The notes under the pieces: generated by a model
What the model saw: only the letters and a program-made list of their open reading frames with translations
Databases searched by the model: none
What the model was told of the DNA's origin: nothing
Position numbers and translations under genes: made by a program
Shown: positions 1 through 59,460 of the stretch, in pieces
Position numbering within the stretch: position 1 is the stretch's first letter
Layout: every line of letters begins with the position of its first letter
Assembly: GCA_017936605.1 (NCBI GenBank)
Contig: JAGBFH010000024.1
Location: 1-64,000 of the forward strand
Length of the DNA stretch: 64,000 nt
Direction of reading: 5' to 3'
Source of the DNA: Tidjanibacter sp.
GTDB lineage: Bacteria; Bacteroidota; Bacteroidia; Bacteroidales; Rikenellaceae

Positions 1-28
1 ACTTAAGGTTGCAGCGATACGCAGTATC

Positions 29-157
29 GGGCACAACGGTGCCAGCGAGTGCTGGGATTCCGAAGTAAGGCGATAGGTAGAATTACGGCATTGGGTTAAA
101 GAGATACGAAGTATCTCCTAAAAATTTTTGGGGCGCCTTTTTATAAAAAGGCGCGAA
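29..157 (+). repeat. Dispersed hairpin leader element, copy A1
   Basis: This stretch matches segments at 32655-32941 (plus) and 50059-50175 (minus). Shared pieces are the string ACTGGGATTCCGAAG (here GCTGGGATTCCGAAG), a GTAGAA-TTACG segment, the stem-loop GAGATAC-GAA-GTATCTC (101-117), an AAA-TTTTTGG segment and an AT-cored palindrome (134-155, half-site GCGCCTTTTT). A purine-rich tract follows and runs into the ATG at 194. All three copies point toward the gene they precede, so a role in the 5' untranslated region is likely. That role is inference. Confidence 0.75.
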
Positions 158-193: not shown

Positions 194-631
194 ATGGGAT
201 ATAAGGAAGACAAACAGTATCAGCTCGATGGGCGTTATATGAGAATGGCTCGTGTGTGGGCCGAGAATTCGTACTGTATCCGCCGCCAGGTGGGTGCGCT
301 CATTGTCAAGGATAAGATGATTATCTCCGACGGCTATAATGGTACGCCCTCGGGGTTTGAGAATATCTGTGAGGACGAGAGCGGCGTGACCAAACCCTAT
401 GTGCTCCACGCCGAGGCCAATGCCATCACAAAGCTGGCCAAGAGCAGCAACTCGGGAGATGGTAGTACACTCTATGTGACCGCCTCGCCCTGTATGGAGT
501 GCTCCAAGCTCATCATCCAGGCGGGCATCAAGAGGGTTGTGTATTGCGACCTCTACCACAATACCGATGGTATAGACCTCTTGGAGCGCAGCGGCATTGA
601 GGTGGTGCGTAGAACGCTCGATAACGATTAG
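194..631 (+). CDS. dCMP deaminase (cytidine/deoxycytidylate deaminase family)
   Basis: The 145-aa product has the zinc-dependent deaminase signature: HAE at residues 72-74 supplies a zinc ligand and the proton-shuttling Glu, and PCMEC at 99-103 supplies two Cys ligands. Length and motifs fit cytosolic dCMP deaminases, which make dUMP for thymidylate synthesis. I chose the ATG at 194 because GAAAGAAGG lies just before it and the protein begins there as relatives do. The frame stays open 66 bases further upstream, but that part encodes only Lys/Glu-rich sequence from the repeat leader. It heads an operon, with the MATE gene starting 24 bases after its stop. Confidence 0.92.
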   Translation: MGYKEDKQYQLDGRYMRMARVWAENSYCIRRQVGALIVKDKMIISDGYNGTPSGFENICEDESGVTKPYVLHAEANAITKLAKSSNSGDGSTLYVTASPCMECSKLIIQAGIKRVVYCDLYHNTDGIDLLERSGIEVVRRTLDND

Positions 632-29964: not shown

Positions 29965-30086
29965 AAACACATATAGCGGGTGAATTTTTCACCAACTGCA
30001 ACGGGCGAGACCCTCACTTACCTCGAGTAAGCTGCGGGCCTCGCCCATCTTGTTGTTAAAAAATTCCCTCCGCTCTATGCGTTTTT
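29963..30086. repeat. Terminal-inverted-repeat element at the araC stop codon
   Basis: The left end AAAAACACATATAGCGGG (29963-29980) begins inside the TAA stop. The right end CCGCTCTATGCGTTTTT (30070-30086) is its inverse with two mismatches over 17 bases. Inside is an imperfect stem with arms GGGCGAG and CTCGCCC. The same kind of element, 122 bp long, begins inside the stop codon of upp at 58993. Confidence 0.75.
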
Positions 30087-31303: not shown

Positions 31304-32677
31304 ATGAACGCGTTGAGGAGAGTGATACTTCTGATTGTCGCGATGGTGGCATCGGCGACTTCGCTTCTGGCCCAAAAGCAAGATGGGCTCCAGAAGTCGG
31401 AGGTCGTTGTCTATTATCGTCACGACAAGTACTCCATCGACCGCACCTATATGACCAACCAGGAGGCTTTCAATACCCTGGACAGCATCTTCTGCAACTA
31501 CGGCGACGCCATCGACAGCATCTCCATCATCTCACACGCCTCGCCCGAGGGTCGTCACTACTACAATATGTGGCTCTCCAGGCAGCGTGCCAACAGTATG
31601 AAGGGCTTTTTGAGGGTGAAGTATCCCACCGTTGATTTCTCCAACCTGAAGACCTACCCTCGAGGTGAGGACTTCCAGGGCCTCATCGAGATGGTCGAGG
31701 CCGACCAGAAGGTCCCCTACCGTAAGGAGGTGCTCTCCATACTGAAAAATGGAAACCTCCACGCCGACAAGAGGATGGAGGAGCTCTATAAGCTGCGCGG
31801 CGGTGTCAGCTATAGCTACATCAAGCGTCAGATTCTTCCCTGGTTGCGTACGGCAACAACCTGCATCATCTACTACAATCGTGAGGCTATCGAGGCCCAG
31901 GAGGTGATTGATAATATCGCCCAGCAGGAGATTATCATCGAGGAGCGCGAGGACGGCAAAGCCTCGGCGTTTGTTCCCTTCGTGCCCGCGCCCGAGCAGC
32001 CCACCTACACGCCCGTAGGCGAGGAGCCCACACCCGAGGAGCCCGCACCCGAGGAGCCCCTCGAGCAGCCGAAGGATGTGGAGAGGCGGGAGTCGGGGAC
32101 TATCGACTACCTCGTGGCGGCCAAGACTAACCTCTTGTTCGACGCTGTGGCGGCTGTGAATGTGGCGGCCGAGATACCCATCGGCAACCGCTACTCGGTG
32201 GAGGGTAGCTGGACCTTCCCCTGGTATGTGCCCAACGATTGGGACTGGTGCTACCAGCTGTTGTGGGGCGATGTGTCGGGTCGCTACTGGCTCGGCGAAC
32301 GCACAAGGGATAATAGGCTGTTGGGTCACTTTGTGGGCCTCTATGCCGGTGGTGGTCTCTATGACTTCCAGTGGCGTAGCACGGATGGCTATCAGGGCGA
32401 GTTCTTCTTGGCGGCAGGCGTGAGCTACGGCTACACTATGAGGCTCAAGAACAACTGGAGGTTCGAGTTCGAGTTCGGCCTCGGCTACCTCCGAAGCAAC
32501 TATCGCCACTACTACCACATCACCGAGCCCGACGGCAAGGAGACCCTCATCCGCGACCGCGTGACGGGCGTGTTTGGCTACTGGGGTCCCACCCGAGCAC
32601 GCATCTCGCTGGTGATGCCCATCGAGTGGACTATAAATAAAAACAGAACCAAAGGCGGCAACGGCCGCAACGAGTGA
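31304..32677 (+). CDS. DUF3575 / OmpA-like outer-membrane protein of fimbrial cluster 2
   Basis: The 457-aa protein has a signal peptide (ending SLLAQ, about residue 24). An OmpA-like segment follows at about 45-130 (IDSISIISHASPEG, LSRQRANSMKGFL). Next is a Pro/Glu linker with repeats of EEPAPEEP (about 225-260), and then a DUF3575 beta-barrel-like domain (LVAAKTNLLFDAVAAVNVAAEIPIG to SLVMPIEWTI). Proteins of this build commonly head fimbrial clusters in Bacteroidales and may anchor the pilus in the outer membrane. The last residues (KGGNGRNE) and the stop are supplied by the repeat element that begins at about 32655. Confidence 0.85.
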   Translation: MNALRRVILLIVAMVASATSLLAQKQDGLQKSEVVVYYRHDKYSIDRTYMTNQEAFNTLDSIFCNYGDAIDSISIISHASPEGRHYYNMWLSRQRANSMKGFLRVKYPTVDFSNLKTYPRGEDFQGLIEMVEADQKVPYRKEVLSILKNGNLHADKRMEELYKLRGGVSYSYIKRQILPWLRTATTCIIYYNREAIEAQEVIDNIAQQEIIIEEREDGKASAFVPFVPAPEQPTYTPVGEEPTPEEPAPEEPLEQPKDVERRESGTIDYLVAAKTNLLFDAVAAVNVAAEIPIGNRYSVEGSWTFPWYVPNDWDWCYQLLWGDVSGRYWLGERTRDNRLLGHFVGLYAGGGLYDFQWRSTDGYQGEFFLAAGVSYGYTMRLKNNWRFEFEFGLGYLRSNYRHYYHITEPDGKETLIRDRVTGVFGYWGPTRARISLVMPIEWTINKNRTKGGNGRNE

Positions 32678-32941
32678 GGGTGGCTCCGAAGCAAGGCGGT
32701 AAGAAGAACGGAAACAAAAGGTTACACTAAAAGTTTTTGGCCGCAACGGGCACAACGGTGCCAGCGAGTACTGGGATTCCGAAGCAAAGCCGTGGGTAGA
32801 ACTACGACATACGGTTACACTAAAAGTTTTTGGGCACAACGGTGCCAGCGAGTGATGGTGGCTCCGAAGCAAGGCGGTAAGTAGAACGGAAACATAAGGT
32901 TACACTAAAAGTTTTTGGTGCAGCTTTTTACAAAAAGCTGC
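32655..32941 (+). repeat. Dispersed hairpin leader element, copy A2 (three tandem units)
   Basis: Three units of about 87 bases each end in ACTAAAAGTTTTTGG (ends near 32744, 32831 and 32918). Each has TCCGAAGCAAGGCGG or ATTCCGAAGCAAAGCCG in the middle. The last continues into a stem-loop with arms GCAGCTTTTT and AAAAAGCTGC (32920-32941), and AAAAGCTGCGAAA-like motifs follow up to the lipoprotein start at 32997. The first unit overlaps the end of the DUF3575 gene. The gap between the two genes (319 bases) is filled by it. Confidence 0.8.
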
Positions 32942-32996
32942 GAAACAAAAAGCTGCGAAAAGAAAAGCTGCGATAAGAGAGAGAAAAAAAGAAAAA

Positions 32997-33994
32997 ATGA
33001 GGTTGAGAAACAAAATATGGAGTATGGTTGCTCTGCTGATGGTTTTGCTGTCGGCGGGTTGCCACCGTCGTCCTCTGGAGGAGATGGACGACAGCTCTAT
33101 CTCGACCTTAGTTTGGACCTTGAGATTCAGAATATTGAGGGTGGCAGACTGAATAAGCCCGAGCTTATGAGGGTGGTCTTCTACGATGCCGAGACTCTGG
33201 AGTTTGTGTCGGATGACTATGTGCTGCCCGAGGGTGGCTATATCAACGCGCTGCCTGGTAGGTATAAGATGCTGGTCTATAACTTCGATACGGAGTCGAC
33301 CCTCATCCGTAGAGATAGGGCTTTGAGTGATATTGAGGCCTACACGAGTGAGATTCCCACGAGCACGCGTACGGGTCTGCTGACCAAGCTCAAGGCGTCG
33401 GCCACGAAACCTTCGTTCATTGCGCCCGACCCCGAGGCTCTGATTGTCTATGAGCCCGACCACCTGCTGGTTGCGAGAAAGGATGTGGAGGTTGTGCGCC
33501 GTACGGGCACCCAGACCATCTATGCCGATGCGGCGAGCATTGTGGAGACCTACTACCTGGGCGTGAAGCTGAATAATAAGGGCCACCTGGCGAGCGCACA
33601 GGCGCTGCTGTCGGGTCAGGCCAAGAGTAATACCTTCGGTTTTGATGGTGGCGTGAGCGAGGAGAGCGTCATCCTCTACTTCGATATGTACTCGGGCGTG
33701 AATGATAAGGAGGGTGGTGTGGATGTGCTCCAGACGACCTTCAACACCTTCGGTAAGTTGCCCGAGGAGGTTTCTCACCTGTGGCTCACCATTGTTGTGA
33801 CCAACACCAACGGCGAGACCGTCACCTGGCAGAAGGATATCACCGACGAGTTCAACAATAACCCCGATAAGTACATATACATTGAGGAGCCTCCTATTGA
33901 TGTGCCCATACCGCCCACACCGCCAGGCGGTGGTGGTGGCTTCCAACCCACGGTGGGCGAGTGGGAAGAGGAGAACTACGACATTGCAATTTAG
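32997..33994 (+). pseudogene. DUF5119 fimbrial lipoprotein with a broken reading frame
   Basis: Translation from the ATG at 32997 gives a lipoprotein signal (VLLSAGC, Cys22) and the family start CHRRPLEEMDDS, then runs into a stop at 33150. The rest of the family sequence (YLDLSLDLEIQNIE, ELMRVVFYD, GGYINALPGRYKMLVYNFDTE, to the end at 33994) lies in another frame, as if one base were missing near 33092-33096. Rejoined, it would be about 330 aa and match DUF5119 proteins of fimbrial clusters. The body frame is open upstream to 32915, but that part lacks a signal peptide and comes from the repeat leader. It may be a true mutation or a sequencing error. No slippery homopolymer is present. Confidence 0.8.
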
Positions 33995-47891: not shown

Positions 47892-50012
47892 TTAGCGGCC
47901 TACGGAGTTTACGGCGCTCTTCATAGAGCTCATACCCGACGAGAAGCCGCCCAGACCGCCGCCCTGCTGCTCCTTCTCCCTCTTGAGGGCCTCCTGGCGC
48001 TTCTTCTCCCTCTCCTCGAGGAGCTTCTGGAGCCTTACGGCCTCCGTCTTGCGCAACTGCTCATTGACGCTCTCGAAGGTTATGGGCTTGAAGAGATTGT
48101 TGGCGTCTATGGCAATCTCAATCTCCCAGTTGGCCTTGACCTCAATGAGCTCCTCGCCCTTGGGGTCCACATAGGGCTCCGTGCGCTCGGGCTGGCGGCG
48201 CTCAATCAGATTGCCGGTATCCCACTTGCCGTTGGCGTTGCCGTCCTCCAGAACGGCGAGTTTCACCTTGCCGGGGGTCACATAGTTGAAGCGATAGGTG
48301 CCCGTAGTGGCATTCTTCACCTCCGCGAGGGTCTTGCCCGACTCGTTCTTGAGGTAGATGACATAGTTGGCCTCGGGGCTCTTGCCCTGAATCTTCACAA
48401 TCACAACGCCATACTTCTCGGGGTCGAGGGTCACATAGTCGTTGCGCAGTGTGTCGTTGGACTCGCCCGCCACATTGCGGAACGCGCCCGCAGGCACCAC
48501 GAGTTTATACTTCTTCTTGGGCTGCCAGTCGGCCTTCAGGTGCCAAACCTTCATATCGAGGCTGTCGCAGAAGAGCTCATAGTCGATGGTGGGCAGCTCC
48601 GAGAGGTCCTCCGAGATGCTCTCCACGCCCCTCTTCTTGGCCTCCTTCTCCCTCTCCTCGGCGAGCTTCTTCTCCTCCTCGGGGGAGAGCGCATCGCCCG
48701 CCACGCGCAACTCGAGTGCGGCCGTATCGACCGCCACCAGAGGCATAGCAAACTTAAAGGTCACGGTCTTCTCGGGGTTCAGCTCGCCCTTGCTCACCTC
48801 CACCGAGAAGGGGTTTTTCTTCACAGGGGGCACATACTCCACGCTATCCTTCAGCGCCTGCTCCATCTTCTTCTCCTCCTCCTCGCGGGCCTTCTTCTCC
48901 TCCTTGCTCTCGATGTACTTCCACACCAGCGACAGCTTGGCCGTATCGGGCACAAGGTTATTGACCGAGTCGTGTTTCATATAGACCACGCGGCCCCTCA
49001 GGGTGTCACCCAGACGCTCGGCGGGCACATTGAGCCAGTAGTTCACCGTATCCCTATCTCTGGTGACATACTCGGTCACTATCTCGCTCTGGTCGATGCT
49101 GTCAATCGCAAAGTCGAGCACCTCGGGCCAGGGGGCACCGAAGAAGAGTGTCACCTTATGACGGCTCTCGCGCTTGGACTCCGAGAGGGTCTGGCGCTGA
49201 AACCTGCCGTCGGTGAACATCTGGAAGTAGAGCTGTGGCTCGGCTGTGAGGTAGTGGCGCGTGGTGTCGTACCACACCTTGAAGTCGGGCTCGCTCAAGG
49301 GGTTGTGTATCGTGTCGAGGAAACCTACCATATCGGTCTCGGGGTCGTAGGTGAAGTTGTTGTTCTTGTCCTCGATGGCGTAAATCTTATAGTCTATGGG
49401 CTTGAGGTTCTGGGCGATGAAGATGCCGTTGCCACCTGCACGAGCCACCACTGCGGGCTTATACTTGAATAGTATGGAGTCGTACTCGGGGATGGAGTCC
49501 ACCTCGGCGGGGTAGAAGAAGATGAGCGAGTTGCTCACACTGTCGCCCTTGCTGGCACTCACCGTATAGCCGCTCATAACCATCGAGTCTATCTCGCTGC
49601 CCGTGGAGAAGACATAGCGCAGACCGCTCAGGCGGTTGCCCTCGTTGTTGTCCACAATGGAGTTGCCGAAGTTCAGCGCGTAGGTCTGATTCTCCTCGAG
49701 GGTGTCGAGGATGGTGATGCGGATACCCTTACCACTCGTGGTGACGGTGGGGGTCTTCTTCATCATTGGCGAGGTGAAGAACTCCTTTTGCTGGTCCTTG
49801 ATTTGGACATACTCGTTGAAGCCGATGTATATCTCCTTGCCGGTGAAATTGGTGGTCCCAAACCCGGGCATAGCACTCACAACAATGGGCGGCAGCGTGT
49901 CCTTAGGGCCACCCTGCAAGGTCGCCACATTGGCACAACGCCACAGCAGACTGCTCGCAAACAGCACCACTGTCGCCAACTGCAAAAATCTCTTAACCAA
50001 CTTTTCGTTCAT
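47892..50012 (-). CDS. Ig-like (Big_5) domain lipoprotein, conserved in Bacteroidales
   Basis: The 706-aa protein has a hydrophobic signal ending SLLWRC (Cys26), then ANVATLQGGPKDTLPP, the hallmark start of a conserved Bacteroidales lipoprotein family. An N-terminal Ig-like domain with the bacterial Big_5 pattern (GKEIYIGFNEYVQI, ILDTLEENQTYALNFG) covers about 40-140. Glu/Lys-rich helical stretches (about 385-410 and 490-510) separate further beta domains. The C-terminal 60 residues are coiled-coil-like, then Gly/Ser-rich. Function unknown. Copy A3 of the hairpin leader element lies just upstream of its start. Confidence 0.8.
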   Translation of the reverse strand: MNEKLVKRFLQLATVVLFASSLLWRCANVATLQGGPKDTLPPIVVSAMPGFGTTNFTGKEIYIGFNEYVQIKDQQKEFFTSPMMKKTPTVTTSGKGIRITILDTLEENQTYALNFGNSIVDNNEGNRLSGLRYVFSTGSEIDSMVMSGYTVSASKGDSVSNSLIFFYPAEVDSIPEYDSILFKYKPAVVARAGGNGIFIAQNLKPIDYKIYAIEDKNNNFTYDPETDMVGFLDTIHNPLSEPDFKVWYDTTRHYLTAEPQLYFQMFTDGRFQRQTLSESKRESRHKVTLFFGAPWPEVLDFAIDSIDQSEIVTEYVTRDRDTVNYWLNVPAERLGDTLRGRVVYMKHDSVNNLVPDTAKLSLVWKYIESKEEKKAREEEEKKMEQALKDSVEYVPPVKKNPFSVEVSKGELNPEKTVTFKFAMPLVAVDTAALELRVAGDALSPEEEKKLAEEREKEAKKRGVESISEDLSELPTIDYELFCDSLDMKVWHLKADWQPKKKYKLVVPAGAFRNVAGESNDTLRNDYVTLDPEKYGVVIVKIQGKSPEANYVIYLKNESGKTLAEVKNATTGTYRFNYVTPGKVKLAVLEDGNANGKWDTGNLIERRQPERTEPYVDPKGEELIEVKANWEIEIAIDANNLFKPITFESVNEQLRKTEAVRLQKLLEEREKKRQEALKREKEQQGGGLGGFSSGMSSMKSAVNSVGR

Positions 50013-50058
50013 TCTCTCTTTTTGTTTTCGCTTTTTTCGCGCCTTTTTGCGCCTTTTC

Positions 50059-50175
50059 GCAGCTTTTTGTAAAAAGCTGCACCAAAAACTTTTGGGAGAT
50101 ACTTCGTATCTCTGTAACCGTATGTCGTAATTCTACCTACCGCCTTGCTTCGGAATCCCAGTGCCCGCCGTGGCC
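50059..50175 (-). repeat. Dispersed hairpin leader element, copy A3
   Basis: Read on the minus strand it has CACTGGGATTCCGAAG, AAGGCGGTAGGTAGAA, ACATACGGTTACA, the stem-loop GAGATAC-GAA-GTATCTC (50096-50112), AAAAGTTTTTGG and the stem GCAGCTTTTT/AAAAAGCTGC (50059-50080). The start codon of the Ig-like lipoprotein lies 47 bases further on, across purine-rich sequence. Confidence 0.8.
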
Positions 50176-50192
50176 GATGCCACTTTTAATTT

Positions 50193-59114: not shown

Positions 59115-59460
59115 ACTTTCAATGGAAAGCGGTCTGGAGCCCCACCAGCACTCGTAGCGGCCGTTGCCGCCTGCGGGCCTCGCCCATCTTGTTGGCAAAA
59201 AATTCCCCTCGCTCTATGCGTTTTTACTTTCAAGGGGAAGCGGCCTGGAGCACCACCATCACAAAAGGGTCGTTACGACCCCGCCCTATGCGTTTATTTT
59301 TGTCTACCGACGCCCGACGACAGTCTACCGTCTACCGACAATGGGGCCTATAAGCCCCATAGGTCCCATAGGTCTTTAAGGACCTTAAGGACCTTAGGGA
59401 GTTTAAGGAATTTAGAGAATTTAGGGATTCCACCTAAGTCCCCTCCATAATTTTCAATTT
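59115..59460. repeat. Repeat segment related to 30087-30172, then decamer repeats
   Basis: There is no gene. CTTTCAATGGAAAGCGG and CGCTCTATGCGTTTTT recur (again at about 59211-59226), as do GGGTCGTTACGACCC and GCGGGCCTCGCCCATC. From 59340 the CCCATAGG decamers and AAGGACCTT nonamers of the composite family follow. Confidence 0.75.

Follow-up and report, generated by a model that had tools for sequence, protein, structure and literature searches.

Placement between the genes of an operon is known for some REP sequences, and the element that we describe here appears to be placed likewise. It resembles the BIME/REP class in being intergenic, in its short palindromes and mosaic arrays, in its many copies, and in the compensating variants of its stems. 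Two unit types alternate in orientation, as they do in BIMEs, but in a relative (G020) of the genome under study. In contrast to REPs, each unit combines three to four hairpins, and most genomes of the genus show it in one fixed orientation. REP/BIME palindromes bear a GTAG or CGTC tag at one end (PMC3733652). By direct reading rather than by formal test, GTAG in our element lies within the core (GGTAGGTAGAA), not at the end of a palindrome. The REP transposase RAYT (Y1 transposase, PF01797) is absent from the source genome and from 14 of 15 other genomes checked, and the sole RAYT among those 15 belongs to a genome, G006, that is itself free of the element. Because the REP transposase is missing, we do not file the element as a REP.

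Like BOX of Streptococcus pneumoniae, the element is modular, with optional or repeated modules, would form hairpin RNA, lies between genes and can precede them. BOX elements have terminal inverted repeats and target duplications and are over-represented between convergent genes (PMC3049150, Table 1 for placement). The present element lies instead in co-directional spacers and has no duplication at the one site that was resolved. One of its hairpins, H2, is optional, yet what repeats is the whole unit and not a middle module. We know of no sequence relation between the two.

Another comparison is with the BrickBuilt MITE of Porphyromonas gingivalis, which like our element is found in the Bacteroidales, is intergenic, has an internal unit number that varies between strains, and has a limited host range. 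BrickBuilt consists of 23-nt tandem repeats between a leader and a tail, with terminal inverted repeats, 4-nt target duplications and promoter activity (PMC4596501), none of which was found in our element. In the source genome there are no matching ends that would make terminal inverted repeats of the MITE kind; the left end is ragged and the right end is hairpin H3. Because neither terminal repeats nor a target duplication were found, we do not file the element as a MITE. It also resembles the RNA families of Rfam in being structured, with covariation; the window gave no Rfam match at the gathering score, and permissive thresholds returned only matches at chance level.

Copies of the element in the window

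The window is a 64,000-nt stretch of contig C14 in a 1.88-Mb draft genome (G000). An earlier note, made from the letters of the window, had described three copies of a structured element and taken them for a mobile 5' leader. Reading the sequence bore out the three copies at the places given (Table 1), along with the purine-rich tails that follow all of them, the GAGATAC hairpin said to occur in two of the three (copies 1 and 3), and a spacing of 38-55 bases between H3 and the start codon, which we measured as about 39, 55 and 46 nt for copies 1, 2 and 3. A motif is common to the copies, as the note had it, but copy 1 reads GCTGGGATTCCGAAG, so the exact shared string is TGGGATTCCGAAG.

Copy 1 lies at the extreme end of the assembly contig, which puts its upstream neighbour beyond the contig. 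The gene after copy 2 looks frameshifted, with the signal-peptide ORF (51 aa) and the remainder of the gene (33113-33994, + strand) in different frames; this is either a real frameshift or a sequencing error.

Table 1. Features of the repeat copies and their neighbours, in window positions
Feature	Position	Strand	Remarks
Copy 1	30-155	+	one full unit H1-core-H2-box-H3; covariance model E 1.2e-34, 147 bits
H2-like hairpin (GCGATAC GCA GTATCG)	14-29	+	remnant of preceding unit, cut by contig end; read directly
H1 hairpin GGCAC(AACG)GTGCC, copy 1	30-43	+	
H2 hairpin GAGATAC(GAA)GTATCTC, copy 1	101-117	+	
Conserved box CTAAAAATTTTTGG, copy 1	118-131	+	
H3 palindrome GCGCCTTTTTATAAAAAGGCGC, copy 1	133-154	+	
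dCMP deaminase ATG, downstream of copy 1	194-196	+	N-terminus common to orthologues
Copy 2, three-unit tandem array	32655-32942	+	H3 on last unit only
Copy 2, unit 1	32655-32743	+	covariance model E 2.0e-14
Copy 2, unit 2	32749-32834	+	covariance model E 3.7e-17
Copy 2, unit 3	32833-32942	+	covariance model E 3.1e-26
Box, copy 2 unit 1	32727-32740	+	
Box, copy 2 unit 2	32820-32833	+	
Box, copy 2 unit 3	32905-32918	+	
H3 hairpin GCAGCTTTTTACAAAAAGCTGC, copy 2	32920-32941	+	
ORF upstream of copy 2	31304-32677	+	last codons and stop (32677) within unit 1
Short ORF from ATG after copy 2	32997-33152	+	lipoprotein signal peptide
Copy 3	50058-50183	-	one full unit; covariance model E 6.8e-34
H1 hairpin GTGGC(ATCG)GCCAC, copy 3	50170-50183	-	
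H2 hairpin, copy 3	50096-50112	-	
Box CCAAAAGTTTTTGG, copy 3	50082-50095	-	
H3 hairpin, copy 3	50059-50080	-	
Lipoprotein gene ATG, downstream of copy 3	50010-50012	-	
CGCATAGAGCGNNGGGAATTTT family in the window	30060-30081, 59199-59220	-	hairpins extend about 200-350 nt around

Structure of the unit

A full unit consists, in order, of hairpin H1, a core of 40-60 nt, the optional hairpin H2, the box CYAAAARTTTTTGG, hairpin H3 and a purine-rich tail, and arrays hold one to three units. H1 has forms such as GGCAC AACG GTGCC, the core exists in at least three versions, H2 is GAGATAC GAA GTATCTC with variants, and H3 is GCAGCTTTTTACAAAAAGCTGC with variants. The tail contains partial repeats of the H3 arm. 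Units are ragged at their left (5') ends, while the 3' end (H3) is nearly always intact; the 3' part, comprising H2, the box and H3, is also the part conserved between species.

We assessed the hairpins by comparing each named pair with a control in which the partner was slid. For 21 units, standard pairs fill 97.9% of the named pair cells as against 45-51% with the slid partner, and there are 63 two-sided changes in the stems as against 1-2 in the control. The 100% reached by H1 follows from its having been chosen for its ability to pair; no such choice was made for H2 or for the outer arms of H3. Across several genomes H3 occurs with 11 different complementary arm pairs, and 51 loops of H2 have the form C(GNA)G. 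Because the arms co-vary, we conclude that the hairpin structure is maintained, as RNA or as DNA. The hairpin of the box has a U-G wobble in 16 of the 21 units, which pairs only in sense RNA. Folding of single copies gave mixed z-scores (-3.1, 0.1, -1.3 and -2.1) and is weak support beside the covariation. We rejected an intrinsic terminator, since direct reading found no U-tract after the stems.

Copy number in the genome

Across the source genome the strong units number about 48 and are grouped into about 34 arrays. With up to two mismatches, the box CTAAAAGTTTTTGG matches the window 7 times where 0.31 matches are expected, and with up to one mismatch it matches the genome 47 times, compared with 2 for the reversed control. 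The shorter string TGGGATTCCGAAG alone, with two mismatches allowed, gave a window count below significance. The earlier note had proposed a search with a covariance model built from the copies, and this search returned 48 matches at E<1e-8, 21 of which are training units or close likenesses of them. The DNA search and the covariance model recover the same set, plus a tail of weaker partial matches.

Identical 109-base stretches of the element stand at four contig ends (C3:67330-67438, C7:1-109, C8:29-141 and window 29-137). The repeat thus breaks the assembly, and copies may be missing or collapsed.

Orientation and placement

Genes were called with a simple codon-usage scorer, and the starts of seven arrays were corrected by eye. 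Two of the 34 arrays lie at contig ends, which leaves 32 that can be assessed. The fixed orientation and distance claimed for the window copies hold across this genome: 30 of the 32 arrays point toward a co-directional gene whose ATG follows 29-156 nt after the box (binomial sign test, p about 2.5e-7). The exceptions are C1:2720, where the next gene is convergent and the array is co-directional with its upstream gene, and C4:91211, a weak, off-type array with an opposed gene. Another array, C8:32157, is directed at the downstream gene from within a divergent spacer. An effect of the replication strand is an unlikely source of this pattern, since on a single contig the copies of either strand are oriented with their own genes.

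Where both flanking genes were called on the same strand, the array agrees with both of them in 27 of 27 cases. Since the upstream gene is co-directional too, the orientation is equally compatible with a role at the 5' end, at the 3' end or between cistrons. The distance to the upstream gene, 24-575 nt, is more variable than that to the ATG, and arrays often start at or overlap the upstream stop codon, as in copy 2 and at hydG. Many of the spacers lengthened by arrays belong to housekeeping operons, among them the suf genes, pdxA-thrS, nusA-infB and aspartokinase. The downstream genes have no common function. We rejected a riboswitch or metabolite leader on the grounds that these genes are functionally unrelated and that one sister species may have the unit at a gene where another does without it.

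Promoter boxes and the dnaX and thrS spacers

The Bacteroidetes -7 box, TAnnTTTG, served as the sign of a likely promoter. Of 32 divergent spacer sides, 25 contain it, and of 30 convergent spacers, 2 do. Among co-directional spacers, it is present in 1 of 26 that carry the element, compared with 28 of 91 that do not (Fisher p=0.004). No array of the source genome has TAnnTTTG inside it, which removes the unit as a carrier of a promoter of this kind.

The sole element spacer with the box is that of dnaX, where the likely promoter box, TATCTTTG, stands 40 nt before the ATG, between array and gene, so that the array is upstream of it. A conserved TATCTTTGTGAGGTTATACCTCACAAG directly precedes dnaX here (locus L058, on C14 outside the window) and in relatives; it comprises a likely promoter box and then a small hairpin. 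At thrS, the array lies between the pdxA stop codon and a conserved leader (GGGGCGGTAGGCCGCAGGTCGTATTGCGGTGCCCC in the source genome), and this leader is kept in relatives that are free of the element. The thrS leader (L057, on C13; also in G012, G016, G018, G020, G021 and G022) has a conserved GC-rich hairpin, GGGGCGGTAGG..CGTATTGC..GCCCC, and has no match in Rfam. Given the dnaX and thrS cases and the absence of the promoter box elsewhere, we infer from sequence that most copies are intercistronic, inside operons, and not leaders of separate transcripts.

Gain, turnover and distribution

We compared orthologous spacers in relatives. In G012 the box is absent from all 15 spacers compared, and the median gap is 44 nt; at sufS the gap is 8 nt, compared with 137 in the source genome. 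Sharing of the element at orthologous genes is mostly with the nearest relative, G022, where 10 of 14 loci have it in both genomes and 4 have it in the source genome only. The shared loci usually differ in unit number or subtype, and unit types have been swapped at the same position, for example at thrS and AK.

The best filled/empty pair is the spacer before hydG, which measures 202 nt in the source genome and 21 nt in G022. The empty site in G022 reads GACCATCCCGATTTTGTTGAAAAACAGTGACTTAAAATATAC, and the array in the source genome lies between ...CCCGACTTT and ...AAAAAACAAGACACTTAAAATATAG. The upstream gene ends in VEKQ and a stop in G022, while in the source genome it reads into the element and ends in PGSEVKQ and a stop; in the more distant G012 this protein ends differently. 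There is no target duplication at this pair, the single site resolved. On this one case, hydG appears to be a recent gain in the source genome, a polarity that rests on the improbability of a precise loss in G022.

The covariance model has matches in 23 of 60 relatives, all within the family, and none in 24 genomes from other families of the order. Named relatives with the same core belong to Tidjanibacter (Rikenellaceae), which places the source genome in that genus, near to but not in Alistipes, the genus named in the earlier note. Several near-complete genomes of the same genus (G004, G006, G010, G014 and G015) are without the element. Annotated phages and plasmids gave no match to copy 1, and viral contigs gave none to two patterns; we set aside a phage or plasmid origin. 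A reverse transcriptase was rejected as mobiliser: one gene for it is present in the source genome (C10:17214-17894), as also in G018 and G012, and it is absent from the element-rich G020, G011, G021 and G022, so that there is no correlation.

Units in co-directional spacers of the other genomes of the genus, G020 excepted, have the same orientation as the genes in 21 cases and the opposite in none. The preference that the earlier note had expected of copies in general disappears outside the nearer relatives. The expanded, GAAGC-type subfamily of G020 has 11 units in the same and 9 in the opposite orientation (9 to 1 for the AAAAATTTTT type), and other genera of the family have 4 and 7. The orientation rule is a property of the clade and of particular subtypes, not of the whole family. 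In G020 the two unit subtypes alternate head to head or tail to tail about 60 nt apart, in a BIME-like mosaic (loci L204, L216, L228-L235, L249, L252, L253 and L257). Such alternation within arrays is not seen in the source genome, where all units of an array have the same orientation.

Other simple repeats are common in the spacers of the clade, with runs of AATTGAAAATTG, AATTGAGA and CTTAAGGAC in the source genome and in G016 (for example L050 and L141), which suggests a general expansion of spacers.

A second repeat family behind gene ends

Weak matches of the model led to another family, of long terminator-like hairpins, CGCATAGAGCGNNGGGAATTTT ... CACCCGCTATATGCGTTTTTT. It has 37 sites in the source genome and none in the control. 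Among fetched sites that have a gene to their right, this gene runs on the opposite strand in 18 of 18, and in the unit nearest the gene the motif is mostly 94-100 nt from the stop codon. The opposite strand and this spacing together place the hairpin just behind the stop codon. Many of these hairpins share their H1 module with the element of operon spacers, which suggests that both types of spacer repeat are built from a common set of modules.

Discussion

Taken together, the element looks like a new mosaic relative of the known bacterial spacer repeats and not like a dedicated gene switch. Our preferred explanation, to which we assign a probability of roughly 0.6, is that it is a non-autonomous, modular, palindromic intergenic repeat, of the BIME/BOX kind, that has come into co-directional spacers, mostly those of operons, and multiplied there. 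Judging by the missing promoter box, most copies would be transcribed within polycistronic mRNA as a row of stable hairpins. This row would separate the stop codon of the upstream gene from the A-rich initiation region that belongs to the downstream gene and that insertion would leave intact. It might act as intercistronic REPs do, by shielding the upstream message from exonucleases, making processing sites or breaking translational coupling, with effects on the mRNA that are probably mild and tolerated by selection. The nearly always intact 3' end and the ragged 5' end suggest that insertion or copying is anchored at the run of purines that precedes start codons, and such anchoring would yield a constant orientation without any need of function. 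Selection against copies that disturb expression may contribute. Purine-anchored copying plus selection thus seems to us the simplest source of the constant orientation in the clade. Against this explanation, the search for a mobilising enzyme yielded neither a REP transposase nor a reverse transcriptase linked to the element. Orientation in the source genome is also stronger than in most such repeats, which could mean that the sense RNA has a function.

That possibility leads to the reading of the earlier note, in which a spreading 5' untranslated region sets translation or mRNA stability of the downstream gene and orientation is kept by a function of the sense strand. The element is indeed repeated and structured, and in the source genome it is locked in orientation and distance; the 30 arrays that point to a nearby start codon, the conservation of H2, box and H3 between species, and the wobble pair of the box all agree with a role of this kind. 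What does not stand is a specific 5' role. Upstream genes are equally co-directional, the arrays of dnaX and thrS lie upstream of a likely promoter and of a native leader, the downstream genes share no function, sister species lack the element at the same genes, and the bias is gone in the G020 subfamily and in other genera. We therefore consider this reading unlikely. A role at the 3' end of the upstream message, which the element would process, terminate or protect, seems quite unlikely: C8:32157 points to a downstream gene from a divergent spacer, the hairpins have no terminator U-tract, and the more variable distance is the upstream one, although the upstream stop frequently coincides with the start of an array or falls inside it (position 32677 in unit 1 of copy 2; hydG), H1 recurs in the family behind gene ends, and C1:2720 goes with its upstream gene against a convergent neighbour.

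A further alternative is functionless copying from one spacer to another through recombination or template switching; the purine-rich homology ahead of start codons would then give the orientation as a side effect. The absence of a target duplication at hydG, the swapped unit types at thrS and AK, and the repeated partial copies of the H3 arm in the tails all agree with such copying. We nevertheless regard it as very improbable, as compensatory changes in three hairpins indicate a structure that is maintained or re-made, which slippage would not ensure, and only one junction has been resolved. A broader scheme, speculative and rather unlikely, is a spacer grammar in which the element marks the joints of operons and the H1-sharing second family marks gene ends, both oriented by transcription; copying would be purine-anchored, and units would set how separately operon neighbours are expressed.

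Conclusions

Short length and conservation are the usual expectation for the spacers of bacterial operons. In this clade, rows of hairpins have lengthened many such spacers; the corresponding gaps in near relatives measure a few tens of bases. The same operons thereby supply natural filled/empty pairs, which would give a direct view of the effect of an intercistronic hairpin array on expression.
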